Both the position numbers and the translations under genes were made by a program. A stretch of DNA of 39,835 bases, taken from positions 1-39,835 of the IMG/VR virus record IMGVR_UViG_3300027902_000018, one strand, 5' to 3'. Origin of the DNA: a virus. Shown here one piece after another: positions 1,938 to 39,672 of this stretch. Each line of letters begins with the position of its first letter. Within the stretch, counting starts at the first letter, position 1. Below the pieces are notes generated by a model. That model was not told the DNA's origin. It was given only the letters and a program-made list of their open reading frames with translations, and made no database searches.

Positions 1938-1966
1938 TTGACTTTTTATGGTAATTACTTTATAAT
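1938..1966 (+). promoter_or_regulatory. Consensus sigma70-type promoter for the ligase gene
   Basis: TTGACT (1938-1943) and TATAAT (1961-1966) are separated by exactly 17 bases in the gap between two genes, 29 bases before the ligase start. This is close to the bacterial housekeeping consensus and suggests early expression by host polymerase. The same two hexamers with the same spacing occur at 34904-34932. Confidence 0.85.
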
Positions 1967-1994
1967 TAAGGCAATAATAAAAAGGAGCTTTTAT

Positions 1995-3875
1995 ATGAAT
2001 ATGAAAGAAATCATACAGCTCAAGGCAACATTACGGGAAGAGAATAAAGCTTATCGTCTAACATCTAAACCTATTGTTCCAGATGCAGTTTTTGATTCAC
2101 AAATGGAGATGTTAGAAAAAGCAATTGATGAAGAAGAGTTCATCGAATTCCTTGAAGTCCTCAAAGAAGACGTCATTATTTATGGAAGTGAAAGAAAAGA
2201 AAAACTTCCACACATCATGGCGTCGTTAGATAAAGTTAAAACCCTTGCAGAAATACAAAAATGGTATACAAAATATAATATTTCAGAAACTGAAGAAATT
2301 GTACTCACACCAAAATATGATGGTCTTTCATTATTGGTGAATGAGAACAACCATAAAGCATGGACCTCAGGCGACGGTACCGTGGGTCAAAGGTCACATG
2401 ATCACTTCAAGGCTATGAGGCACGGAGAAACCGGTAGAGGGGTTACCTACGGCGAGGCAATTATGCTTCGTTCAATCTTTGCAAAGAAATATTCTAAGGA
2501 AATATTGGGAGAAGACGGTTATGAGAATCCTCGTAATTTGGTATCCGGACAATTGAATTCACCTGACCCTACCAAGATATTGAAGGATATGTACTACGTT
2601 AGATACTCCGTCATTAATTCTCAGGCTAATAAGGAACAACAGTTAGAATATTGTAACTCGCTTAATGAATTGAAGGTTCCATTTAAGGTGACACGGCTTT
2701 GTGACCTTACAGAAAAAGGTTTACTGGATCTTTATAAGGAATGGAGAAAAGATGTCCTTATTGATGGAATTGTAATCGATATCAATAGGCATAGTATTCG
2801 AGAAGAGCTTGGTAGACATGCTTCCACAGATAATCCGCAATATGCCAGAGCCTATAAAAGCAAAGATTTTGAGGAAGTAAAGCAAGCCACGGTAGTTGAT
2901 CTTATTATCAAGGTTTCAAAACAAGGTTATGTCATTCCAGTAATTCAAATCACACCTACAAGGCTTGATGAAGTCACCGTGACAAGATCATCCGTTTACA
3001 ATTATAAAACGGTAGTTGATCTTGGTATTGGAAAAGGTGCCGTGGTTATGATTAAGAGAAGCGGCCAGGTAATTCCCAAAGTGGTGGATGTTATAAAGAA
3101 AGTAAAAACGATAATTCCTACCATTTGTCCTTCATGTGGGGAAAAATTGGATTGGAATGAGACTGAGGTTCATCTTGAATGTATTAATCCAAATTGTGAA
3201 GCTCAACGATATCAAAATATCGTTTCTTTTTTCAAGATCATGGATGTGGAAGAGGTTGGTGAAGGAACACTTAAAGCTTGTTATGCGGCAGGATATGATA
3301 CCGTGGGAAAGATTTTAAAAATGAGACAGTCAGATTTTAGAAAGTTGGATGGGTTTGGTGATAGAAGCGCCGAGATTGCCTATACGAATATTCATTCAAA
3401 GATGTCCGAGGTGTCCTTACCACAACTGATGCATGCCAGCGGGTGTTTCCGTATCCTTGGTTCTACGAAATTGGCATTAGTATCCCACCTGGCGGACGAG
3501 AATCCTACCGTGGGAGAGTTGAATAGTATCAAAGGATTTTCCGATACAAGCTCGAAATCATTTATTACAGGTTTGAAAAAGTTCAAGGAGTTTGTGAAAG
3601 ATCTTCCTATCACGATTAAGAAAAAAGAGGAGGTCAAAATGCCTACTTCCAATAAATGTGAAGGAAAAGTATTTGTATTTACCGGCTTCAGAAGTGAAGA
3701 ACTTGAAGAAAAGATCAGGAGCTGTAATGGAGAGGTTGGGAGTGGAGTAAATAAGAGAACGACCCATTTGGTGATGAAGAAAAAGGGAAGCGGTTCTGGA
3801 AAGGAACAGAAAGCAATTGACCTTGGAATTACCATTTGGGATAAGGATGAAATTGAAAAATTCTTAGGAAAGTAA
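1995..3875 (+). CDS. ligA: NAD-dependent DNA ligase
   Basis: 626-residue ligase that seals nicks using NAD+ and releases NMN. The adenylation lysine is K107 in TPKYDGLS. Then come the nucleotidyltransferase core, an OB-like region (TVVDLIIKVSKQGYVIPVIQ), a four-cysteine zinc finger (CPSC...CINPNC near residue 380), helix-hairpin-helix repeats and a C-terminal BRCT domain (GKVFVFTGFR). It is a little shorter than bacterial LigA (about 670). I use the ATG preceded by AGGAG; an in-frame TTG at 1938 is the promoter -35 box. T4 itself uses an ATP-dependent ligase, so this phage adds to its own demand for NAD+. Confidence 0.95.
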   Translation: MNMKEIIQLKATLREENKAYRLTSKPIVPDAVFDSQMEMLEKAIDEEEFIEFLEVLKEDVIIYGSERKEKLPHIMASLDKVKTLAEIQKWYTKYNISETEEIVLTPKYDGLSLLVNENNHKAWTSGDGTVGQRSHDHFKAMRHGETGRGVTYGEAIMLRSIFAKKYSKEILGEDGYENPRNLVSGQLNSPDPTKILKDMYYVRYSVINSQANKEQQLEYCNSLNELKVPFKVTRLCDLTEKGLLDLYKEWRKDVLIDGIVIDINRHSIREELGRHASTDNPQYARAYKSKDFEEVKQATVVDLIIKVSKQGYVIPVIQITPTRLDEVTVTRSSVYNYKTVVDLGIGKGAVVMIKRSGQVIPKVVDVIKKVKTIIPTICPSCGEKLDWNETEVHLECINPNCEAQRYQNIVSFFKIMDVEEVGEGTLKACYAAGYDTVGKILKMRQSDFRKLDGFGDRSAEIAYTNIHSKMSEVSLPQLMHASGCFRILGSTKLALVSHLADENPTVGELNSIKGFSDTSSKSFITGLKKFKEFVKDLPITIKKKEEVKMPTSNKCEGKVFVFTGFRSEELEEKIRSCNGEVGSGVNKRTTHLVMKKKGSGSGKEQKAIDLGITIWDKDEIEKFLGK

Positions 3876-27002: not shown

Positions 27003-28430
27003 TTATTTATTTGAATTATCTCTTACTTCATCAAAGGTATACTCCTTTTTTAATCTCGGATTGTGACTGTAAGCAATCCTTTCATTATCTAACCATGTTC
27101 CGTCATATACTATATTCAATACTTCTATTGTATTATCATCCCATTGTTTCATAATATCACTAGTGAAGTATTTTCCATTTTTTCTATAAAGAGTGAGTCT
27201 TCCACCTTTACTATTTTTGCCTGGGTCTGTTACTGGACTTTTTGACACATCTTTCCATTCACCATTGATCCTAATTGCGGAACATTTCATAGCGAATTGG
27301 AAAGTATCACGATCCAGCTTTTGTAGAAGAGCGCCTCCCATTCCAAATGCTATATTATCAGCTGACCATTGATGAACGATAAGAGTTGATAAGATAAGCC
27401 TAATAGATTCTTGGTTGATACCATCCCCTTGAATTACTCGAACATTGTTAAGGACTTTAAAGTCCTTTTTGTTATATGTAAATCCGAATCTCTCTCCAAG
27501 AATTTCTATAACTTTTAAAACTACTGTAGCAGGATCGCCACTATCAGGACGGATAATAACAAGAGCCCCTGAATCAATTACCTCCTGCTTGAGTTTATCA
27601 CCCCAAAGGTTTTCACAGGCATTGAATATATCATAACTGTCAGATACTATGGCAAGGAGTGCATTCGGCTTACCGTATTGTTTAAGCATATTCCTGTAAG
27701 CATCTTCTTCCCTATCTTTACCCCAGGCAGTAATAGTACTATGTTCTGCCGCAGGAATAGAGAATGCCGCCATTGAATGATTGTAATAGTAATTTGCGGC
27801 TCTGACTCCTTCTATTGTATCCGAACCCATGAAATTAACCAAATGAGCTGCACCACCTAACATTGCCGATTCATGGGAACTTACTCCACGACCACCAAAA
27901 TCATGTAATTTGAATGGTAATTGTCCGGCAGGATCATCGGATGATATTTCTAAATACTTTTTAATTACCTGTTTGCATTCGTAGCTATTGGTTGCTACTG
28001 TGGTTGGATACCAAACGGCCCTATGAAGCATCGTTTCAATATATGAACCAACCCAGAAACATTTTGGGTCAGTACATTCGACGGTAACTAGCGCATTAGA
28101 AAGAGGTATGAGTGAACCTTCAGGCGCTGCTTTAATTACTACTGGGATATAACCTTTGTATGCATCAAGGATATACTGCCAACCTTCTCTATTGAAAGGT
28201 TCACCATGTGCCTTTGCGAAACCAACAGCTTCATAAATATCTTCTTGGGTGAATGGAGTCAAAAGATATTCCTTAATGAACATTTGAAGTCCGAAGAAAA
28301 GTGTCTTTTCAGTTCCATTAGTACTTCCTCGAGCTTCAATATATCCAAAATATCCATCCGAACCTGGTGGATATTGTACCCAATGAGACATCTTATATGA
28401 ATCACATTGTAGTAAAATATTTCTTTTCAT
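27003..28430 (-). CDS. nadV: Nicotinamide phosphoribosyltransferase (NAMPT)
   Basis: 475 residues, the usual NAMPT length. It makes NMN from nicotinamide and PRPP, the first step of NAD+ salvage. Landmarks: MKRNILLQCDSYKMSHWVQY at the N-terminus; HDFGGRGVSSHESAMLGGAA with R181; MGSDTIEG with D204; PAAEHSTITAWG with catalytic His230; VIIRPDSGDP with R294 and D296; and IQGDGIN. It is the last gene before the terminator and is preceded by a two-hairpin leader nearly the same in plan as that of the NMN adenylyltransferase gene. Confidence 0.95.
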   Translation of the reverse strand: MKRNILLQCDSYKMSHWVQYPPGSDGYFGYIEARGSTNGTEKTLFFGLQMFIKEYLLTPFTQEDIYEAVGFAKAHGEPFNREGWQYILDAYKGYIPVVIKAAPEGSLIPLSNALVTVECTDPKCFWVGSYIETMLHRAVWYPTTVATNSYECKQVIKKYLEISSDDPAGQLPFKLHDFGGRGVSSHESAMLGGAAHLVNFMGSDTIEGVRAANYYYNHSMAAFSIPAAEHSTITAWGKDREEDAYRNMLKQYGKPNALLAIVSDSYDIFNACENLWGDKLKQEVIDSGALVIIRPDSGDPATVVLKVIEILGERFGFTYNKKDFKVLNNVRVIQGDGINQESIRLILSTLIVHQWSADNIAFGMGGALLQKLDRDTFQFAMKCSAIRINGEWKDVSKSPVTDPGKNSKGGRLTLYRKNGKYFTSDIMKQWDDNTIEVLNIVYDGTWLDNERIAYSHNPRLKKEYTFDEVRDNSNK

Positions 28431-28482
28431 TTTTAGGAACCCCCTAATTTTTGGAATTTACCTTAGAATCTGTTTCTAAGGT
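28431..28482 (-). promoter_or_regulatory. Two-hairpin RNA leader of the NAMPT gene
   Basis: Read on the - strand: hairpin 1 has 9-bp arms ACCTTAGAA/TTCTAAGGT around the loop ACAGA; a 12-base spacer follows; hairpin 2 is TTAGG-GGGTT-CCTAA; two bases later comes the ATG. The only ribosome site, the G-run, is inside hairpin 2. The leader at 34839-34884 has the same loop GGGTT, stem length, spacer length and distance to ATG but different paired bases, which indicates a conserved RNA structure. Ligand or protein unknown. Confidence 0.75.
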
Positions 28483-28498
28483 TTGAATTATGCTTTTT

Positions 28499-28738
28499 TC
28501 ATAATGCTACCTTGTCACATGGAACAGAAGTAAATAGATATATGTAATGTCCTCGTACCCATTGTTCACTTACAGCATAACATATACCATATCTATCTTT
28601 GAAGTAATCCAGTTTTATAGACAACTCTTGTTTAGAGTTAATTAAAGTTATTTCTTTTATTGATGGTTCTTCTCTTTTCTTACAACCGATCACTAGAAAC
28701 ATCAAACAACATATACTGATTATTAAAAAGTTTTTCAA
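28499..28738 (-). CDS. Small lipoprotein
   Basis: 79 residues. MKNFLIISICCLMFLVIGCK is a lipoprotein signal with lipobox LVIGC (C19). The mature part ends YGICYAVSEQWVRGHYIY...VPCD, like the short phage proteins with the pattern CYAV...VPCEKV. It lies just before the NAMPT leader. Membrane-anchored; function unknown. Confidence 0.65.
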   Translation of the reverse strand: MKNFLIISICCLMFLVIGCKKREEPSIKEITLINSKQELSIKLDYFKDRYGICYAVSEQWVRGHYIYLFTSVPCDKVAL

Positions 28739-28740
28739 TT

Positions 28741-28851
28741 TTATTCCTCCGTTATGATTGAAGCAGCACCGGCAGAGATTTCAGCTTTGGTTGCGATTGC
28801 TACTGCACAATCATAACCTGCTTCTTTTAATTCTTCTTTAATCTTTTCCAT
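28741..28851 (-). CDS. 36-residue protein with a near-perfect ribosome site
   Basis: ATG to TAA. Preceded by AAGGAGGTGAT, an 11-base complement to the 16S rRNA 3' end, which would give very strong translation. The protein is MEKIKEELKEAGYDCAVAIA and TKAEISAGAASIITEE: one charged helix and an Ala-rich helix. It overlaps the previous gene by 14 bases. Possibly a regulatory micro-protein; family unknown. Confidence 0.55.
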   Translation of the reverse strand: MEKIKEELKEAGYDCAVAIATKAEISAGAASIITEE

Positions 28852-29023
28852 CTGGTATCACCTCCTTTTCTATATCTGGATGTGCAACTTCAATCGTATG
28901 TCGTGATCCACATAAAGTATCAACAGTAATTGTCACCTGTACTCGATATATGCGGGCAATCCAGTCCGCAATTTGATTTATAATTTCCTGTAAAGAAGGT
29001 GGTTGAATATACAGTTTTGCCAT
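28838..29023 (-). CDS. Small hypothetical protein
   Basis: 61 residues from the ATG giving MAKLYIQPPSLQEIINQIAD; longer in-frame starts run into the lipoprotein gene. The chain is one amphipathic helix followed by beta strands (IYRVQVTITVDTLCGSRHTI). It starts within two bases of the previous stop, so it is translated by coupling. No family recognised. Confidence 0.5.
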   Translation of the reverse strand: MAKLYIQPPSLQEIINQIADWIARIYRVQVTITVDTLCGSRHTIEVAHPDIEKEVIPDGKD

Positions 29024-29024
29024 A

Positions 29025-29243
29025 TTAATAATGATCCAATTTTTGACACCTTTCAAAACGAGGATATTTGTCATAAAACGAATTTGTAAAAATAGGAATA
29101 CCACCAGCTTGAATACATAAATCTGAGGACATTCTCTCTATTTCAATAACTTCTCTTATTCTTTTCTGTTCTGGACTTTCTCCACAACTGATTAAAGCTC
29201 CAAATAATATTCCTACCAAGAGTATCATTATTTTCCATCTCAT
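29025..29243 (-). CDS. Small lipoprotein
   Basis: 72 residues. MRWKIMILLVGILFGALISC followed by GES gives lipobox LISC (C20). The mature part is acidic (EQKRIREVIEIERMSSDLC). It overlaps the methyltransferase gene by four bases. Probably on the inner or outer membrane; an exclusion role is only a guess. Confidence 0.65.
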   Translation of the reverse strand: MRWKIMILLVGILFGALISCGESPEQKRIREVIEIERMSSDLCIQAGGIPIFTNSFYDKYPRFERCQKLDHY

Positions 29244-29734
29244 ACAAACTCCTTTAAGCTATATTTCAATTTTGGTGTTATTTCTATTGGTTTCAATTTG
29301 AAACATCTGATCTCTTCCAGATATTCATCTTTTCTATACCCAAAATTTTGGAAGATATTCAAAATTACTAAATGTAAATCCCGATATTCTTTTGAAAACC
29401 AAATTTCATATGTAGGAATGACAAATCTATACCAAAGAAGATCTAAAATGAGATTTCTTTGATAAGAAGATTTATTTGAATCTATTATAATGAGTTGCCC
29501 TCCAAAAGTCAATTTATTTTTTAGGTAATTTAAAAGCTTTTCTACGTCTTCAACATGGTGTAGTACATTTTTGCAATGAATTTCTTCGAAGGTATTGTCC
29601 CTAACTTCAGAACCTGTTTCTCTTGATATAATCTTTTCACCATCAAATAGAAAATCCAAGTATGGTGAACTTGTTACATCACAAGTCGAATATCCTTTTT
29701 GAGGATTATATCCTGAACCAAAATCAAGTTTCAT
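29240..29734 (-). CDS. SAM-dependent methyltransferase-like protein
   Basis: 164 residues from the ATG giving MKLDFGSGYNPQKG, which is motif I of class I methyltransferases (D/E-x-G-x-G variant). EEIHCKNVLHHVEDVEKLLN and LTFGGQLIIIDSNK match motifs III-V of the small-molecule/lipid type (Methyltransf_11-like). The substrate cannot be told. The start overlaps the YopX-like gene by 11 bases. Confidence 0.75.
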   Translation of the reverse strand: MKLDFGSGYNPQKGYSTCDVTSSPYLDFLFDGEKIISRETGSEVRDNTFEEIHCKNVLHHVEDVEKLLNYLKNKLTFGGQLIIIDSNKSSYQRNLILDLLWYRFVIPTYEIWFSKEYRDLHLVILNIFQNFGYRKDEYLEEIRCFKLKPIEITPKLKYSLKEFV

Positions 29735-30104
29735 AAATGTTACCAACAACTGTAAGTGTCATTCTATCGATTAATCTTAGTGGATAGTCACCACAACCAA
29801 AACAACTATTTATGAATATAATATCTTGCTTTACTCTTACATCATTGGGTGCACCAGGGAACCATGCTGTTACGGTGTCACCTTCATAAACTTCTGTTCC
29901 GTCCTGATCTTTGAGTCCAGTATATTGCATAAGAATAAAATTTTCTTCACCATTATAGCCATTTGATAGTACAACGCTTTCTATTTCAGACAGGCAACAA
30001 TGTGCCCGTATTACTTCGCCTGATAAGAGCCAATCTATACGATCAACATAGTCATACATTTTTTTATTGAGTTTATCCCATGCGCGAAATTTTATCTCTC
30101 TCAT
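29724..30104 (-). CDS. YopX-family protein
   Basis: 126 residues. MREIKFRAWDKLNKKMYD, then LMQYTGLKDQDGTEVYEGD and a terminal beta strand, VVGNIYET, are the hallmarks of YopX, a family very common in phages with unknown function. Full length. Four-base overlap with the radical-SAM gene. Confidence 0.9.
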   Translation of the reverse strand: MREIKFRAWDKLNKKMYDYVDRIDWLLSGEVIRAHCCLSEIESVVLSNGYNGEENFILMQYTGLKDQDGTEVYEGDTVTAWFPGAPNDVRVKQDIIFINSCFGCGDYPLRLIDRMTLTVVGNIYET

Positions 30105-30862
30105 GTTCTTCTCCTTATTCCAACTGCTTCACAATATCCTCCCCAATTGATAAATGTACCAAGAGGAGATACAACCAAATCTGTTTCATTATAGTTGCCG
30201 TCTTTATGTGTATAATAACCGATTCTTCTTCCTCTATACTCTAAGAAAATTAAACCATAGTTTGTTTTTTTAAGTTCTTTGAATCCAAATTCTTCAAATC
30301 TATCTAATAAGGAATATGTGCCTAATATATCCTCACATATCGTAATATTCTCTTCTTTGAAGAAATCTACAATCCATCTTACTCCTTGTCCTTCTCCCAT
30401 ATTTTCTTTACATAATGGGATATTGATTCTTATATTTTCTACACCAAAAATTTCCTCTGCTTCTCTTAACTTTTTAATGATCCTTACAATTGAATTAGGA
30501 TATGTACCTGTTAATTCGGAATATCCACTGATAACTGCAATGGAAATATTGATTCCTTCCAACCCACAACTTTTCCAAAGTAACATTATATCTTTGTCAA
30601 GTAAAGAACCATTTGTTGTTAATCTCACTCGTTTAGATGCTCTTTTAGATGTTCTGATATAAGATGAAAGATCAGGTAAAAGCGTCGATTCCCCTCCCAT
30701 AATAGTACAATAGTTAAAATATTGTTTAGGATATAAATTTATAATATCATTTAATTGAGAAAGATTTAGAACCTTATCACTTTTATCTTTCTGATAACAG
30801 AATTTGCATTTGTAGTTACAATATAAATTTGTTATGACTCGTAAACCTTCAAGTGGTTTCAT
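30101..30862 (-). CDS. Radical-SAM enzyme (MoaA/SPASM-like)
   Basis: 253 residues from the ATG that overlaps the previous stop (ATGA); an in-frame ATG five codons earlier is inside that gene. CNYKCKFC (C15, C19, C22) binds the 4Fe-4S cluster, IMGGESTLLPDL is the GGE-type SAM-binding motif and RLTTNGSLLD the next strand. It is shorter than MoaA, and the C-terminal Cys (GGYCEAVG) is single, so there is no full second cluster. Substrate unknown; placement in the NAD operon is suggestive only. Confidence 0.8.
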   Translation of the reverse strand: MKPLEGLRVITNLYCNYKCKFCYQKDKSDKVLNLSQLNDIINLYPKQYFNYCTIMGGESTLLPDLSSYIRTSKRASKRVRLTTNGSLLDKDIMLLWKSCGLEGINISIAVISGYSELTGTYPNSIVRIIKKLREAEEIFGVENIRINIPLCKENMGEGQGVRWIVDFFKEENITICEDILGTYSLLDRFEEFGFKELKKTNYGLIFLEYRGRRIGYYTHKDGNYNETDLVVSPLGTFINWGGYCEAVGIRRRT

Positions 30863-31047
30863 AGACCTCTCATCCATTTTTCAAATAGTACATCATCATG
30901 TACTATTGTATTGAAAAATAATTCCCTTTCTTTTTCAAATTGCACTTTACATTCCTCAGAACACACAATATCTCCATCTTCATCTAAAATGATACCATCC
31001 TCAATTATTTTTCCACATTGATAGCATTTCATACTTTCTTCTTTCAT
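30859..31047 (-). CDS. Small zinc-finger protein
   Basis: 62 residues. CYQCGKIIEDG...CSEEC (residues 8-33) is a four-Cys zinc finger of the MYM/TRASH-like kind. The C-terminal half is an acidic helix. Overlaps both neighbours by four bases. A second in-frame ATG just before CYQCG is an alternative start. Confidence 0.65.
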   Translation of the reverse strand: MKEESMKCYQCGKIIEDGIILDEDGDIVCSEECKVQFEKERELFFNTIVHDDVLFEKWMRGL

Positions 31048-31520
31048 ATCTTTTCTTTCAAATCATAAACACTTACATTGATATCGCTAAGAGTTTCATT
31101 GATAATGATTTCTACTTCTTCCCAAATACCTCCAGCTAATCCACAACCAATTCTGGGCATATGAATTGAAGCTATTCGAGCCTTTGCTTCTAAGGCTACT
31201 GTCATCAAGCATCTTCTAAGTGCATCATAACGAATAGGTGGTACACCATTTTCTTTCCATACCTTATGTTGTGCTATCATATTGGCGATCCATATTCTAT
31301 CAGTTACTCTAACCATTTGAACTTTACCAAGTGCAAACTTATCATAAATAAGAGTACCTTTATACCAATTCTTATACATTATTTCAGGTTCTCTCCATTT
31401 TTTAGAAATCGCTAAAACAAAACCTCGACCCCATAGACCAAGATCGTTACAGATATGACATACGACCTTACTACCATCTCCAACTGGGGCTGTAGCATCA
31501 CCTTTTAAGTAGGTAATCAT
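31044..31520 (-). CDS. Macro-domain protein (ADP-ribose binding/hydrolase)
   Basis: 158 residues. MITYLKGDATAP followed by VVCHICNDLGLWGRGFVLAI, MIAQHKVWKENGVPPIRYDA, and SIHMPRIGCGLAGGIWEEVE form a complete macro fold of the Poa1p/TARG-like type. Members bind ADP-ribose and remove it from phosphate, protein or DNA ends. The conserved GCGLAGG loop that holds the diphosphate is intact. In this operon it probably recycles or reverses ADP-ribosylation. Confidence 0.88.
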   Translation of the reverse strand: MITYLKGDATAPVGDGSKVVCHICNDLGLWGRGFVLAISKKWREPEIMYKNWYKGTLIYDKFALGKVQMVRVTDRIWIANMIAQHKVWKENGVPPIRYDALRRCLMTVALEAKARIASIHMPRIGCGLAGGIWEEVEIIINETLSDINVSVYDLKEKI

Positions 31521-31535
31521 TATTTTTCTTTTACA

Positions 31536-31733
31536 TCAATCTCCCTTGACCTCTTTGGCCTTGACTTCTATAGTAATAACATTTTCTGCATAATTGAAAG
31601 TACGGCATAAAACTATACATAATTGATCTTTTAGTATTATCAAATCATTTTCACTTGGTAAAACTTGATAGTATGAAATATCTATTTCTGTTTCCAAATG
31701 TGGGGATGAAAGTGAATTAACTCTTAATTTCAT
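31536..31733 (-). CDS. Small beta-rich hypothetical protein
   Basis: 65 residues from the ATG after GGAGG; an upstream in-frame ATG precedes that site. Begins MKLRVNSLSSPHLETEIDIS and ends ITIEVKAKEVKGD, probably a small beta barrel. No recognised family. Confidence 0.55.
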   Translation of the reverse strand: MKLRVNSLSSPHLETEIDISYYQVLPSENDLIILKDQLCIVLCRTFNYAENVITIEVKAKEVKGD

Positions 31734-31789
31734 TTTTCCTCCGATACCAATTCGCATTCAAAGCATCCTTCATATTTTTAGCTCTTAAC

Positions 31790-32188
31790 TTAATAACTCC
31801 TTGGTTTTAGCTTCAATATTTTATCTATAGTCTCCCAAGTTATATGATTACATCCTATATTGAAACCTTCTTCGTTGATATCAGTAACATGATATTTGTT
31901 ATTTCCTATTATAATACGATCATCGAAAACATTGAAATCTTTTTTGAAATATTCATCAACAGATAAGATAGTAAATCCTTGTTTACGAAAATAATCAAGA
32001 TTTCCATATGTTAACTGTTCATCATCATCTATTCTGATACAAGCGTTTTCACCATACGTCAGAACAGCAGCTATATTAAAATTAAATGATTTTCTACCCA
32101 TTGTTGAACCCCATTTTTTCCCTAAAGAAAATTGGTGTTCTTGTACGGCTCTACTTAAAAATTGATTTGGAACATGAACTACTATCAT
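31790..32188 (-). CDS. Hypothetical protein
   Basis: 132 residues, with a start that overlaps the RlmN-like stop (ATGA). The N-terminus (FLSRAVQEHQFSLGKKWGST) is helical, followed by an alpha/beta region (YGENACIRIDDDEQLTYGNL) and a repeat-like C-terminus. No known motif. Located between the RlmN-like and macro-domain genes. Confidence 0.55.
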   Translation of the reverse strand: MIVVHVPNQFLSRAVQEHQFSLGKKWGSTMGRKSFNFNIAAVLTYGENACIRIDDDEQLTYGNLDYFRKQGFTILSVDEYFKKDFNVFDDRIIIGNNKYHVTDINEEGFNIGCNHITWETIDKILKLKPRSY

Positions 32189-33012
32189 AGTATATTCTCC
32201 TGTTCAATTATACCTTTTCCAAGGTGATTTTTCTCCGAAATTTCATTTTTGTTAATTGGAGACAATTTGATAAAGAAATATTTTGGATCAAAATATTTTT
32301 TCAATTTTTCAATATCGAAATCTTTTTCATCTACCAATGTTAGATTTAAAGTTGTTTTTAAATCACTATTTGTTCTAATTTGTCCCAACTCTTTAAGAGT
32401 CATTTTTTTACTCCAAGGTATTAACCAATCACGTCTTTTTTCATCCAAAGAATGTAAAGAAATTTGTAGAGTGATGTTTCCTCTTATCCAACTGAAATCA
32501 GAACCTTTGATTCCAATTGTTGATACATAATGATGAACTGGTAACTTTAACTCTTCAGCTTCATGATAAACAAAATCATTAACTTTTTTTATCGCTTTCT
32601 TCACATTATCAATATTTAGAAAAGGTTCACCCATTCTTGTATAGTTGATCTTGAACTCTTTTGATTTGCTTGGAACATAAGTTGGACTTCCGTCTTGTAT
32701 TTGATTTTGTCTCAAGATGAAGATAATTTGGTCTATGATTTCTCTATCTGTTAAATTTCTCCATTTAGGAAGTTTTGCTGTTGCACAAAATTTACAACCA
32801 ACAGGGCAACCACTCATCGTGGAAACACCAACCATCCACCGTTCATTACGGTCACCAATTTCACAATTCTGTAGTTGATTAGAACCTTGATTCTTAGCAT
32901 CCTTTGTATAGTAGGGGAGAAAGGTATCTGTTACTTCAATAGGATATTCATCACCTAATTGAAGAGAATATACACAACCATTCTTAAATGATTTACTTTT
33001 GATTATTTTCAT
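32185..33012 (-). CDS. RlmN-like radical-SAM methyltransferase, short form
   Basis: 275 residues. VGVSTMSGCPVGCKFCATAK holds the cluster Cys69, Cys73 and Cys76; NYTRMGEPFLNIDNV is the GEP motif; HHYVSTIGI and LQISLHSLDEKRRDWLIPW are further RlmN landmarks. RlmN methylates C2 of adenine in 23S rRNA and some tRNA. E. coli RlmN has 384 residues and needs a C-terminal Cys that carries the methyl group; this protein ends before that region and has no Cys near its end, so the chemistry may differ. Confidence 0.8.
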   Translation of the reverse strand: MKIIKSKSFKNGCVYSLQLGDEYPIEVTDTFLPYYTKDAKNQGSNQLQNCEIGDRNERWMVGVSTMSGCPVGCKFCATAKLPKWRNLTDREIIDQIIFILRQNQIQDGSPTYVPSKSKEFKINYTRMGEPFLNIDNVKKAIKKVNDFVYHEAEELKLPVHHYVSTIGIKGSDFSWIRGNITLQISLHSLDEKRRDWLIPWSKKMTLKELGQIRTNSDLKTTLNLTLVDEKDFDIEKLKKYFDPKYFFIKLSPINKNEISEKNHLGKGIIEQENIL

Positions 33013-33640
33013 TATTTTTTAAATGCTCCTCATAAGTTATAGATTTATGTCCAGCTTCACAAATAGGACATTTAGGTCCTTCACATTTCACATTATGCAC
33101 AGGAAAACGAACTTCGTTTTTTACATTAAGTGCAGGGATCACATGCGCAGGTGAACAAAAGAATAAATCTTTATGAATAATATCACTTCTTACTCTCATC
33201 AAAATTTTTCCTAAAAGGTTTTGACCTTTCCATTTTGTTTCACTATAAGCATCAGGATTATCTTCATTCAATCCTATACCCCAAATTCTATCATATGGGG
33301 AAGCTTCAGCAAGAGTTTTATCACCAGTTTCAATCAATATTTTTTTCAAAGATTCATTTTGATCGAATTTGTTATAACATGCTATATACATGAATCCTTC
33401 TCTTACTTGTATCCAATCTGCCTCAATATATTCTTTTACTTTTCTACCTGCTCGTTTGCAAGCTAATGGATCACTATCATTCAAAATAATTGTGGCAGCA
33501 TCTTTATCTTCGAAATACATAGCTTTCAGATACATAAAGTATTGCTCAGAACTTGACCATTCATGATTGCTTGCTTTGAATTTACATTTATGGAAATTGG
33601 AAAAAGGACCACCCCAAAATAGAATCATACTATCTTTCAT
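32993..33640 (-). CDS. NADAR-domain protein (ADP-ribose/N-glycosidase family)
   Basis: 215 residues. FWGGPFSNFHKCKFKASNHE followed by SSEQYFMYLKAMYF, ACKRAGRKVKEY, and IWGIGLNEDNPDAYSETKWK followed by GQNLLGKILMRVR are the YbiA/NADAR fold. NADAR proteins cleave N-glycosidic bonds in riboflavin precursors, and some remove ADP-ribose from guanine in DNA. The last 55 residues add a Cys cluster (KCEGPKCPICEAGH), a likely zinc site. In an NAD operon, reversal of DNA ADP-ribosylation by host DarT-type toxins is an attractive role. Confidence 0.85.
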   Translation of the reverse strand: MKDSMILFWGGPFSNFHKCKFKASNHEWSSSEQYFMYLKAMYFEDKDAATIILNDSDPLACKRAGRKVKEYIEADWIQVREGFMYIACYNKFDQNESLKKILIETGDKTLAEASPYDRIWGIGLNEDNPDAYSETKWKGQNLLGKILMRVRSDIIHKDLFFCSPAHVIPALNVKNEVRFPVHNVKCEGPKCPICEAGHKSITYEEHLKNNENNQK

Positions 33641-33810
33641 TTATTATTCTCCTTCGTATACTCATAAGTTAAAAGACTTTCATGTACAACAAAACTTTTA
33701 CCACTATTTAAATATATTAGAAAGTATTCATTAGGATACTTACTTATAATTTTACCTCTTTCAGAATCTTTTGTCCCAAACCTAAATATTATTCTATCCC
33801 CTATTTTCAT
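33637..33810 (-). CDS. 57-residue beta-barrel-like protein
   Basis: ATG and TGA both overlap neighbours in ATGA, so it is locked between the NMNAT and NADAR genes. Reads MKIGDRIIFRFGTKDSERGK, then SKYPNEYFLIYLNSGKSFVV, a KOW/SH3-like pattern. Function unknown. Confidence 0.65.
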   Translation of the reverse strand: MKIGDRIIFRFGTKDSERGKIISKYPNEYFLIYLNSGKSFVVHESLLTYEYTKENNK

Positions 33811-34838
33811 ACCCTACCTTTGAAGTAATTGATAATATCAAAATGATCTTCAAATAAAACATCTGACATCTTTTCTACTTGTTGAAATGAAATCCATTTG
33901 GCTTGCGCTGCATCATCTTGACCTTTTAGTTTCATAAGAGGCCCAGGTTTCAATACAATCATATAAGCCATTGTAAAAGTTCTACCACGTAAGGATCTTG
34001 TAGGATAGTCAAACTCATTCTTGTCTCTGATAAGAGACTTGAGTGTTTCTTTTGATAATTTAATAGAAGTTTCTTCCATCAATTCTCTTATTGCGGCATC
34101 CACCCAAAACTCATTTTCTTTAACAAAACCTCCAGGTAATGCCCATAAGCCTTTACCAGGTTCCTTTTTTCTTTTTACAAGTGCTACATTATCTGATTGA
34201 AATACTACAACATCCGCTGTTACATGCTGAGCTGGATATGGTAGTACCGAATATTTTTTCTTGTAATTTTTTACAAAATCAAACCAATCTTTGATATTCA
34301 AATAACCAGATGTATGAAAAAAATGATTCAAATAACTTTTTGTTGATAAAGGAATATCATCATCGTGCAGATGCATTATACCTTGATTGAAATAAGTTTC
34401 TCGAAGTTCAGTTGCATGAACATCATATATCGATCCTGTTTCAATATGTTCCCATTGCGGAAAAAGATTGAAGTAATTAGTGTCTTCACTTTTATGACCA
34501 ATTATACCAATTTTCATACCATATTCAAAAATATAGGCATTCACATGAGTGGAAACTTCTTGAGCCCATTGTATATCGTTGTAGTAGTAATCTCGAGCAT
34601 GAGTGAATGAAACTCTTGGTCTTTCTTCTTCAGTCAGAGCAAGCAAAATCATTTCTCTTCGTTCAGGCATAGTAAATGGGTTTTTTGGATCTCTTGGACG
34701 AAATGCAGAACCGATAACGATAATTAACTTTTCAGAAATTTGAAGGGCTTTTTTGATAATTACTAGATGTGAATTATGGAAGATTTGAAACCGTCCAATA
34801 AATACGAGATAATCAAATTTTTTATTTTCCTTTAACAT
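33807..34838 (-). CDS. nadM: Bifunctional NMN adenylyltransferase/Nudix hydrolase
   Basis: 343 residues. Residues 8-180 are a nucleotidyltransferase: FIGRFQIFHNSHL carries the HxxH ATP site (H21, H24), and HATELRETYF the C-terminal T/S-x-x-R-type motif. It joins NMN and ATP to NAD+. Residues 205-343 are a Nudix domain with a near-perfect box from G237 to I259 (G-x5-E243-x7-R251-E-L-M-E-E), which usually hydrolyses ADP-ribose. This fusion is known from cyanobacteria and large myophages such as KVP40. First gene of the operon; its leader matches that of NAMPT. Confidence 0.93.
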   Translation of the reverse strand: MLKENKKFDYLVFIGRFQIFHNSHLVIIKKALQISEKLIIVIGSAFRPRDPKNPFTMPERREMILLALTEEERPRVSFTHARDYYYNDIQWAQEVSTHVNAYIFEYGMKIGIIGHKSEDTNYFNLFPQWEHIETGSIYDVHATELRETYFNQGIMHLHDDDIPLSTKSYLNHFFHTSGYLNIKDWFDFVKNYKKKYSVLPYPAQHVTADVVVFQSDNVALVKRKKEPGKGLWALPGGFVKENEFWVDAAIRELMEETSIKLSKETLKSLIRDKNEFDYPTRSLRGRTFTMAYMIVLKPGPLMKLKGQDDAAQAKWISFQQVEKMSDVLFEDHFDIINYFKGRV

Positions 34839-34884
34839 ATAGAAGAACCCCTTCTAATAAAATGATTGAAGACTCTATGTCTTC
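34839..34884 (-). promoter_or_regulatory. Two-hairpin RNA leader of the NMN adenylyltransferase gene
   Basis: Read on the - strand: hairpin 1 is GAAGAC-ATAGA-GTCTTC; a 12-base spacer follows; hairpin 2 is AGAAG-GGGTT-CTTCT; two bases later comes the ATG. The leader at 28431-28482 has the same plan: hairpin-1 loop AYAGA, 12-base spacer, 5-bp hairpin 2 with loop GGGTT, 2 bases to ATG. All five base pairs of hairpin 2 are kept although most bases differ. It would hide the ribosome site and regulate translation. Confidence 0.75.
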
Positions 34885-34889
34885 TAAAT

Positions 34890-34897
34890 TATTTATA
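34890..34897 (-). promoter_or_regulatory. Possible late-promoter octamer TATAAATA
   Basis: An exact TATAAATA lies 6 bases downstream of the -10 box of the sigma70-type promoter. It could let the NAD operon be transcribed late as well as early. In DNA this AT-rich an 8-base match can also be chance. Confidence 0.35.
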
Positions 34898-37556: not shown

Positions 37557-38266
37557 TTAAAAATTTCCGGACGAACCGCCTCCGCTGGAACCTCCTCCAC
37601 CACCTCCGAAACTATCTCCTCCATCACTACCACCAAATGGTATAAGTAATAACCAAAGGGTGTTTGTTATTGCCATAATAATTACAACTATGATGATAAA
37701 AATTATTAGTAATCCTATTTTGAGTGGAGTCCAGAATGTAGTTCCAGCTGATTTTTTGGGACGAATTCCCCTTTCACTCTTTTCGACATCGCGGACATTG
37801 CGGCTACTAAACCTTCACCAAACTTACCTTGCTTGGCGAGTGGCACAAAATATTCCTGCATAATTTCTTTTGATTTGATATCAGGTAGTATTCCTTCAAG
37901 TCCGCGGCCGACTTCTACTCCCCATTTCCTATCATTTTTAGCGATCGTGATAAGAATTCCATTATCATAGGTTTTAGTAGAAGTAGTTTTCTGACCCAAT
38001 TTCCAGCTTCTGAATACTTTCAATCCAAAGTTTCTAATATCATCACCCTGAAGACTGGATATTGTCAGAATAGCAATTTGTGTCGAATCAGTCATTTCCA
38101 ATTGTTTTGAAACTGCTTCTGCCTGCTTAGTTGAATCCGCAGACATAATTCCTGCATAATCATTTACTCGACCTTTAAGTGCAGGAACGTCAAGTGCAAA
38201 TGCAAGAACAGTAATTACACCGACTATAAACCCAATAACGGATGATCCTATCAAAAATTTCTTCAT
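37557..38266 (-). CDS. YgcG/TPM-domain membrane protein with a frameshift
   Basis: Residues 1-24 are a signal peptide (FLIGSSVIGFIVGVITVLAF). Residues 27-165 are a TPM domain (GRVNDYAGIMS, STQIAILTISSLQGDDI, DNGILITIAKNDRKWGVEVG). At an A6 run (37751-37756) the frame breaks and the open frame ends 16 codons later. The -1 frame continues naturally: WTPLKIGLLIIFIIIVVIIM as a membrane span, then a Gly/Ser tail ending GGGSSGNF, as in full YgcG proteins. The run reads A-AAA-AAT, a possible programmed -1 site, or one A is missing. Partner of LemA. Confidence 0.75.
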
Positions 38267-38452: not shown

Positions 38453-39079
38453 TTAGCTTGTCATATTTAGTTTAGGAGCAGTCTTAGAACCTTCATCAGC
38501 CTTGAACATATTCCTGCGAACCTTATGATTGAGCATTCCATTAATGATAGAACCTGGGAACGTTTCAACCAAGTTATTCAATTCCATAGCAACTTGGTTG
38601 TAATCATCACGAGCAACCTTAATACGATTCTCAGTTCCTTCTAATTCAGTCATCATCTCAGAAAAATGCTTATCTGCTTTAAGTTGTGGATATGCCTCTT
38701 GAATCATAAGCAGTCGACTAACTAAACCAGATATACCCTGTTGCATTTGTTGAAATTTTTGAAATTCCTGAGGGTTTGTGGTGAGTGTTTTTGCATCTAC
38801 ATGAACTGAACCAAGTTGTGCCCGGGCATCGGCGATAGCCTTAAAAGTAGAATTTTCATGTTTGGCATATCCCTTTGCCGTTTCTGCAAGATTAGGAAGA
38901 AGATCTGCCCTTCGTTGATAGGAAGTTTCTACATCTCCCCATCTTTTATCCACAGCATTATCTGCTACTTGGATACCATTGTAACGAGATACTCCCCATG
39001 AAAAAACGCTTATCGAGAAAAATAATACTACCGCAACAAAAATCGCAATTCCAATCAATACCTTTGTGCCTGTTTTCAT
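38453..39079 (-). CDS. LemA-family membrane protein
   Basis: 208 residues from the ATG after AGGAGG; longer in-frame starts lie in the previous gene. A membrane span at residues 5-27 (VLIGIAIFVAVVLFFSISVF) is followed by the LemA core: YNGIQVADNAVDKRWGDVET, RRADLLPNLAETAKGYAKHE, LLMIQEAYPQLKADKHFSEM, ELEGTENRIKVARDDYNQVA. LemA proteins are helical bundles anchored in the membrane, often next to TPM proteins; the role is not settled. Finding the pair in a phage is unusual. Confidence 0.9.
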   Translation of the reverse strand: MKTGTKVLIGIAIFVAVVLFFSISVFSWGVSRYNGIQVADNAVDKRWGDVETSYQRRADLLPNLAETAKGYAKHENSTFKAIADARAQLGSVHVDAKTLTTNPQEFQKFQQMQQGISGLVSRLLMIQEAYPQLKADKHFSEMMTELEGTENRIKVARDDYNQVAMELNNLVETFPGSIINGMLNHKVRRNMFKADEGSKTAPKLNMTS

Positions 39080-39093
39080 TTTAATTCCTCCTA

Positions 39094-39672
39094 TTAGAAT
39101 GTGAATATTGTAAAAATTCCTACTGCGATACCAATAATGAGTGAAAACCAAAACATTGCTCGTAGACCACCCATATCGCTTGAAACATCAGCATTATTGT
39201 AATACTTTATTTCCTTTTTCCTGCGACTTGATCCTTCAATAGGTGTGTATGTGATAGATTGAACAACACACATTTTACGAAAGAAATAAATCCAACCTAT
39301 TAAAAATAATGTTGTCCACATAACGCCTAATATGATATGAACAAGGGCACCACCCATCATCTTCCATACAATTATTACAGCCACCATTTTACCAGTATCT
39401 GATTTCATAAACTGATCACCTGCTACTCCAAGTTTACTAGCAGCGGTAATAAGGGCATCTCCGATATGGGCACCAACATTCACCCATTCATCAACTTTTT
39501 TTGGTGTTGAAGGAGAAGATTCTTCCTTTTTCATATCTCCAATTAAACTGGCAATTTTTGCTTTTTGTTCGTCGGTTAAACCACTTGTATTGATTTGAAT
39601 TGAATCCGCGGCGGCATACGATAAGGAACTCATTAAAACCATAAACATTAAGAATAGTATAATCTTTTTCAT
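39094..39672 (-). CDS. Exported multi-span membrane protein
   Basis: 192 residues after AAGGAG. Signal peptide FLMFMVLMSSLSYAAA, a periplasmic segment with a helix and Ser/Pro/Lys linker (EESSPSTPKKVDEW), a hydrophobic pair (VAVIIVWKMMGGALVHIILG, MWTTLFLIGWIYFF) and a last span (FWFSLIIGIAVGIFTIFTF). First gene after a consensus promoter and upstream of LemA, YgcG and a zinc ribbon, so these probably form one membrane complex. Family not recognised. Confidence 0.65.
   Translation of the reverse strand: MKKIILFLMFMVLMSSLSYAAADSIQINTSGLTDEQKAKIASLIGDMKKEESSPSTPKKVDEWVNVGAHIGDALITAASKLGVAGDQFMKSDTGKMVAVIIVWKMMGGALVHIILGVMWTTLFLIGWIYFFRKMCVVQSITYTPIEGSSRRKKEIKYYNNADVSSDMGGLRAMFWFSLIIGIAVGIFTIFTF

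Follow-up and report, generated by a model that had tools for sequence, protein, structure and literature searches.

In the control of nicotinamide adenine dinucleotide (NAD+) metabolism by leader RNAs, the NAD+-I riboswitch (nadA motif) has a two-domain architecture that binds the adenosine diphosphate (ADP) part of NAD+ (PMC10085692), and the NAD+-II riboswitch (pnuC motif), found on pnuC of Streptococcus, is a pseudoknot with an A5 strand (PMC7749635, PMC10085692). Phages with NadM, which makes NAD+ from nicotinamide mononucleotide (NMN), also have NadV (PMC9503650). Here we analyze the leaders of both genes in the IMG/VR virus record IMGVR_UViG_3300027902_000018 (positions 1-39,835, the whole stretch being called the window hereafter), where each gene is directly preceded by two small hairpins, P1 and P2, the latter holding the Shine-Dalgarno sequence. 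As judged by comparison with related loci, it is highly likely that the nadM/nadV leader is a conserved translation-control element, and very probably an undescribed one for NAD+ salvage.

The nicotinamide phosphoribosyltransferase gene nadV (27003..28430; 475 aa; Pfam PF18127, NAMPT_N, and PF04095, NAPRTase) and the gene nadM-NUDIX, encoding an NMN adenylyltransferase fused to a NUDIX hydrolase (33807..34838; 343 aa; PF01467, CTP_transf_like, and PF00293, NUDIX), lie 5.4 kb apart on the minus strand, on which both leaders are read. Direct reading of the nadV leader gives P1 as ACCTTAGAA[ACAGA]TTCTAAGGT (5' arm 28474..28482, pentaloop 28469..28473, 3' arm 28460..28468), a 12-nt linker (28448..28459), P2 as TTAGG[GGGTT]CCTAA (28433..28447), the bases AA, and ATG. 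The nadM leader consists of P1 as GAAGAC[ATAGA]GTCTTC (5' arm 34879..34884, pentaloop 34874..34878, 3' arm 34868..34873), a 12-nt linker (34856..34867), P2 as AGAAG[GGGTT]CTTCT (34841..34855), the bases AT, and ATG. The anatomy proposed by the initial annotation, including the 12-base and 2-base spacings, matches this reading base for base. P1 and P2 of both leaders are exactly the minimum-energy folds (ViennaRNA), and the folding energies of the two leaders alone are only mildly unusual (z = -2.2 and -0.9). Hairpins of at least 5 bp with a GGGTT loop occur twice in the whole window, in these two leaders, and the full two-hairpin arrangement is also seen twice against a mean of 0.005 in 200 dinucleotide shuffles, in agreement with the claim that it precedes no other gene of the window. 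These shuffles, together with the homologues, rule out a chance origin of the two leaders.

Relatives of nadV and nadM in IMG/VR carry a hairpin with the loop ATAGA, typically closed by a G-C pair, followed by a hairpin presenting the Shine-Dalgarno sequence as a five-base loop, both at nearly equal distances before the start codon. The plan of the family, as judged from the aligned leaders, is P1 with the pentaloop ANAGA, a free linker of ~12-20 nt, P2 with the Shine-Dalgarno sequence in a GGANN or GGGTT loop, and the start codon. Examples of such P2 hairpins are GATAA[GGAGT]TTATC directly before ATG, TAAA[GGAAC]TTTA and CAAA[GGATT]TTTG; P2 could be parsed in 74 of 88 distinct leaders, with the loop GGAGT, GGAAC, GGATT, GGAGA, GGAGC, GGGTT or GGAAA. 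If P1 is counted more loosely (ANAGA loop, at least 3 pairs, located 27-62 nt ahead of the start), it is present in 115 leaders of phage nadM or nadV genes and in 102 bacterial ones. A P2 with a Shine-Dalgarno loop precedes 81 of 92 nadV starts and 50 of 68 nadM starts versus 49 of 834 other starts on the same contigs, some of these 49 being themselves heads of nadM operons or alternative starts.

Both stems covary. In an alignment of 44 phage leaders without the window, the covariation score is 0.733 compared with 0.176 after shuffling and at most 0.154 in slid columns. After addition of named phages and bacterial chromosomes, double changes are found in all 13 of 13 pairs, and the score reaches 0.843 compared with 0.218 in shuffled (0 of 500) and at most 0.192 in slid alignments, with the same result when the window is left out. 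It must be counted against the proposed element that the aligned leaders were partly chosen for having stems, which inflates the percentage paired and leaves the slid-column contrast unaffected; for this reason we take the contrast, rather than the percentage, as the fair measure. The only invariant positions of the enlarged alignment are A-N-A-G-A of the P1 loop (A13, A15, G16 and A17 in alignments A4 and A5) and two Gs of the Shine-Dalgarno sequence. Neither the length nor the sequence of the linker is conserved, and because of this a pseudoknot between linker and GGGTT loop (AAUUCC or AAUC with GGGGUU), which can be drawn by eye for the window, was dropped. The expectation that homologues would covary and that related nadV and nadM genes of phages and bacteria would keep the hairpins is thus borne out; the GGGTT loop, taken initially as the hallmark, is not conserved and is a local form of GGANN. 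The window copies are divergent members: their P1 hairpins are closed by A-U and C-G, in place of the G-C of most members. The A-U closing pair is also found on nadM of Synechococcus phage B23, and the GGGTT loop in one further IMG/VR locus (L137).

Variants of the plan separate the two hairpins. P2 stands without a recognized P1 in several lineages, including RB43 (AACGT[GGAGC]ACGTT), IME-SM1 and X1, and other P1 loops, identified by eye, are common to both genes of one phage in SCTP-2 (GGC[GATAGA]GCC), BcepSauron (GC[AAGA]GC) and SNUABM_19 (GC[GNTGTA]GC). P2 therefore looks like the platform of the element and P1 like its recognition part. At eight further loci (L145, L159, L163, L166, L171, L172, L184 and L186), a sister hairpin with the loop GYAGT or GTGGT, such as AGGACAG[GTAGT]CTGTCCT, replaces P1 before nadM, and nadV there has only P2.

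When whole phage and bacterial genomes are scanned, almost every significant match belongs to nadM, to nadV or to the small gene that opens the nadM operon, and a genome typically has exactly two. The covariance model R1, in which all loops are ATAGA and all closing pairs G-C, recovered only the nadM leader in the window; as it was too narrow for the nadV leader, the broader models R2 and R3 were built. R3, made from 51 sequences with none from the window, ranks the nadV leader first in an unfiltered search of the window (28433-28485; 28.7 bits, E 0.0005) and the nadM leader second (34841-34890; 17.8 bits, E 0.064), with 12.1 bits in third place; default filters missed the nadV leader, which became the best match once they were off. 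On 45 whole viral records, R1 gave ~60 matches with E<0.01, and the strong ones checked, for which fetched matches rather than each listed one were read inside and outside the loci, precede nadM, nadV or a small open reading frame (ORF) heading the nadM operon. One R1 match in Erwinia phage pEa_SNUABM_19 (MW879342.1, 240676-240725; E 0.0085) lies away from nadM and nadV. Phages RcXuper, DSS3_MAL1, LucasX, B23 and BUCT-ZZ01 have exactly two R2 matches each, on nadM and nadV. The element is absent from nadV of Sb-1, P61, momo, PaP1 and Enceladus, where nadV is distant and no nadM was seen beside it.

A scan of IMG/VR with the pattern GATAGACN{12,28}AAAGGANNTTTN{0,5}ATG, which sets no condition on genes or on the P1 stem, returned 123 distinct sites, and in 79 of these the P1 stem has four or more pairs. 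Among these 79 sites, 72 are on nadV, nadM or their operon by tblastn, five more were assigned by reading (L305 and L276 are apparently NadV genes truncated where the contig stops; L379, L291 and L269 start like the small ORFs of nadM operons), and two are other. Twenty-four pattern sites had no nadV or nadM match, and 17 of them have a P1 of fewer than 4 pairs and look like chance. Another pattern, GGATAGACCN{12,40}GGAGN{3,12}ATG, was rejected as too loose, with only four matched sites preceding nadV or nadM.

In phages, the small ORFs that head nadM operons are preceded by separate copies of the element (L012:7132-7539, L209:879-927, L222:2559-2606, L168:1527-1577, L178:1532-1580 and L165:2560-2607). 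The ORFs are of unknown family and Pfam-negative where tested, and several of their families (KKAYALSAIDKAGKRVYYDTDSHSGG, LHGMLCTWNHTDGCGW) recur across contigs.

In bacteria, 80 chromosomal nadV loci gave 40 R1 matches, none of them on the noncoding strand. Of these, 33 sites were read out, and each stands before nadM or nadV, in two cases through an alternative start further upstream. The bacterial hosts include Lysobacter, Xanthomonas, Stenotrophomonas, Burkholderia, Paraburkholderia, Achromobacter, Caulobacter, Methylococcaceae and others. Broad draws of 274 and 190 genomes from two classes, with stricter filters that lose weak matches, contained matches in three genomes only, all at nadM-nadV loci, and 22 of 119 genomes of the Luteimonas family match, 20 of them with exactly two matches ~1.1 kb apart. 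No element was seen on NAD+ genes other than nadM and nadV in the scanned bacterial genomes. The near-exclusive tie to nadV and nadM in the viral, IMG/VR and Luteimonas-family scans supports the proposed control of NAD+ salvage.

The leaders match no described RNA family among those searched. Rfam 15 gathering scans of the window and of the phage and bacterial loci returned only tRNAs and one permuted tmRNA, and less stringent scans of both leaders yielded nothing beyond chance matches such as SmY and cow-rumen-4. The tmRNA match (RF04321, 47.6 bits, barely over the cut-off) is at L176:1-227, on a viral contig ~1.3 kb upstream of nadV. Run directly, the NAD+-I model RF03013 finds nothing in the window and reaches its cut-off in none of the eight genomes and virus records scanned, and the constant strands of a published NAD+-II construct, GCGUUGCGUCC, GACACGGC and UUAAAAACAAAAGGAG (PMC10085692), are absent from all 53 leaders, so the initial judgement that this is no known NAD+ riboswitch class holds. 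The matches precede nadM, nadV and their operon rather than pnuC, the position of NAD+-II, and they share with riboswitches in general a conserved, covarying leader structure that overlaps an expression platform. No leader RNA of nadV or nadM, nor any RNA control of the NadV and NadM pathway, was found in the open-access papers searched. RegB of phage T4 cleaves GGAG in loops; the interpretation of the leaders as RegB sites was ruled out, given that GGAAC and GGATT are frequent loops and that bacterial chromosomes have the element too. On sequence evidence the element is a new family of a known kind, the translational leader RNAs.

The element on nadV goes with the presence of nadM nearby. Among the 80 bacterial loci, the ANAGA hairpin precedes nadV in 51 of the 54 that have nadM no more than 3 kb away versus 1 of the 26 that do not (Fisher p 2e-16, not corrected for kinship), and locus L444 is an exception to the pattern. 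The NadV tree requires 10 changes, five of them forced by supported branches. A whole-genome search of 16 motif-less strains with nadV alone found the NadM-NUDIX gene absent in 14. Pseudoxanthomonas 3HH-4 has two nadV genes, and the motif is found only on the copy behind nadM and on nadM itself. In genome G646 (C1:77500-83400, L519), nadM bears the motif, and a second copy 1.1 kb beyond it stands in front of an ORF of 37 aa and a Band_7 gene. The nadV gene of this genome lies at another place and lacks the element; the second copy seems to mark a nadV lost behind nadM. All 45 viral records with nadV encode NadM, motif-less ones included. Taken over these loci, the link to nadM speaks for an operator that depends on NadM rather than for a plain NAD+ riboswitch, but does not settle the choice.

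Since the cistrons of one operon each have a separate copy immediately ahead of the start codon, the element most likely acts at translation initiation. Under the proposed mechanism, the element would set the yield of the pathway from nicotinamide to NAD+, in which NadV acts before NadM, at each gene separately. The recognition hairpin would be P1, whose ANAGA pentaloop is invariant, and the expression platform would be P2, with the Shine-Dalgarno sequence in its loop and stem before the start codon; P2 when stable would keep ribosomes off. A signal of NAD+ status acting on P1 and P2 of both mRNAs would stabilize P2 (OFF state) when the salvage enzyme or NAD+ is sufficient, and P2 would be released upon NAD+ depletion, for instance by NADase defences of the host. 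Beyond the observed structure, covariation, gene specificity, copy on each cistron and link to nadM, we infer repression, the direction of the switch and its sensor. The initial proposal, in which a riboswitch or a translational operator would coordinate NAD+ salvage, is supported by covariation and gene specificity, and the link to nadM leans towards a NadM operator.

Several observations weigh against this interpretation. The statement that P2 buries the ribosome site is a fair one, as the Shine-Dalgarno sequence lies partly in the P2 stem and partly in the loop, but the loop Gs are predicted to be unpaired, and P2 alone may therefore repress only weakly. The five independent pairs on the NadV tree point in the same direction in nearly all pairings with p 0.0625, significance being unreachable with only five pairs. 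Lysobacter pythonis has kept the nadV element and has no nadM; conversely, KVP40, phiM12, Lacusarx, XM05 and other phages have NadM and NadV and no P1, so NadM is not sufficient. The link to nadM may merely reflect a motif travelling with the nadM-nadV intergenic region, and such operon-bound inheritance could yield much of the pattern.

Regarding the sensor, our leading if tentative candidate is NadM itself. In this case NadM-NUDIX would bind the ANAGA and Shine-Dalgarno hairpins of the nadM and nadV mRNAs and repress both genes, which accords with the near-confinement of the nadV element to loci with nadM, the agreement of the five tree contrasts and the contrast between paralogues within the Pseudoxanthomonas genome. 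The constant sequence is as small (A-N-A-G-A and the Shine-Dalgarno sequence) as in protein-bound hairpins, and the alternative P1 loops shared by both genes of SCTP-2, BcepSauron and SNUABM_19 are what co-evolution with a protein predicts; L. pythonis and the phages with NadM-NUDIX and no P1 stand against it. A metabolite riboswitch of a new class, in which NAD+, NMN, nicotinamide or ADP-ribose bound by the two hairpins would stabilize P2 and hide the Shine-Dalgarno sequence, is a possible, close second. It would account for the near-exclusive tie to NAD+ synthesis genes across bacteria and phages of very different hosts and for the translational placement, it needs no obligatory extra gene, and two-hairpin riboswitches with very few constant bases exist, as in guanidine-II. 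However, the element is missing from other NAD+ genes of the scanned bacterial genomes and from nadV where nadM is absent, and a linker free in length and sequence leaves few constant bases for a ligand pocket.

The size and sparse conservation of P1 would fit a hairpin bound by some other trans-acting factor, encoded by phage or host, but such a factor would have to be common to Xanthomonadaceae, Burkholderiaceae, Caulobacter and phages of cyanobacteria, alpha- and gammaproteobacteria; we consider this explanation improbable. We also regard as unlikely that there is no regulation, with P2 tuning basal initiation or giving translational coupling and P1 acting as a stabilizing 5' hairpin. Leaders with P2 and no recognized P1, several of them just behind an upstream stop codon, agree with it, whereas the invariant ANAGA, the strict gene specificity and the duplicate copies per operon suggest a specific recognizer.

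The window encodes an NAD-dependent DNA ligase (1938-3875), a protein with a weak Macro-domain match (31044-31520) and a NADAR protein (32993-33640), which from their sequences are a wider NAD+/ADP-ribose gene set of the same virus. Elsewhere, a TPM-domain and a LemA-family protein, a pair unexpected in a phage, adjoin each other at 37715-38266 and 38453-39151, and a single protein (20641-22116) combines a RimK-type ATP-grasp domain with a following putative ATP-dependent Zn protease domain.

Draining NAD+ is one of the main ways in which bacteria defend themselves against phages, and phages respond by restoring it. We found no description in the literature of how this restoration is timed, and the element offers a direct handle on it. 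We consider it likely that the element represents a new, mobile class of NAD+-status switches common to bacteria and phages, with which the phages would start NAD+ reconstitution only once host defences drain NAD+. The class would be a third type of NAD+-related riboswitch or else an RNA operator, the first for an NMN adenylyltransferase. A true riboswitch would join only two known NAD+ classes; with a true NadM operator, an enzyme central to NAD+ metabolism would also be a regulator that binds mRNA. In practice, nadM-nadV operons can be recognized by the element in unannotated sequence, and false positives are very few.

Compared with the known systems, the genes under the element are those of phage NAD+ reconstitution by NadV and NadM, which we take to be the NARP2 pathway. 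The element resembles NAD+-I as a leader RNA of NAD+ synthesis genes with translational control, which in the case of the element is proposed, and differs in that the model of the two-domain NAD+-I does not match it. Like NAD+-II, it is a short leader just before a gene of the nicotinamide pathway, with a structure overlapping the ribosome site; unlike the pseudoknot before pnuC, it has two independent hairpins and an ANAGA loop. Guanidine-II (mini-ykkC) consists of two small hairpins with covarying stems, few constant loop bases and a variable linker, next to the Shine-Dalgarno sequence. The two-hairpin plan is the same, and the differences are the ACGR loops in both guanidine-II hairpins, in place of ANAGA and GGANN, and the genes controlled. 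Threonyl-tRNA synthetase of E. coli recognizes a structure beside the Shine-Dalgarno sequence of its own mRNA; the proposed binding by NadM would be similar, with the difference that here a second gene, nadV, also has the site.

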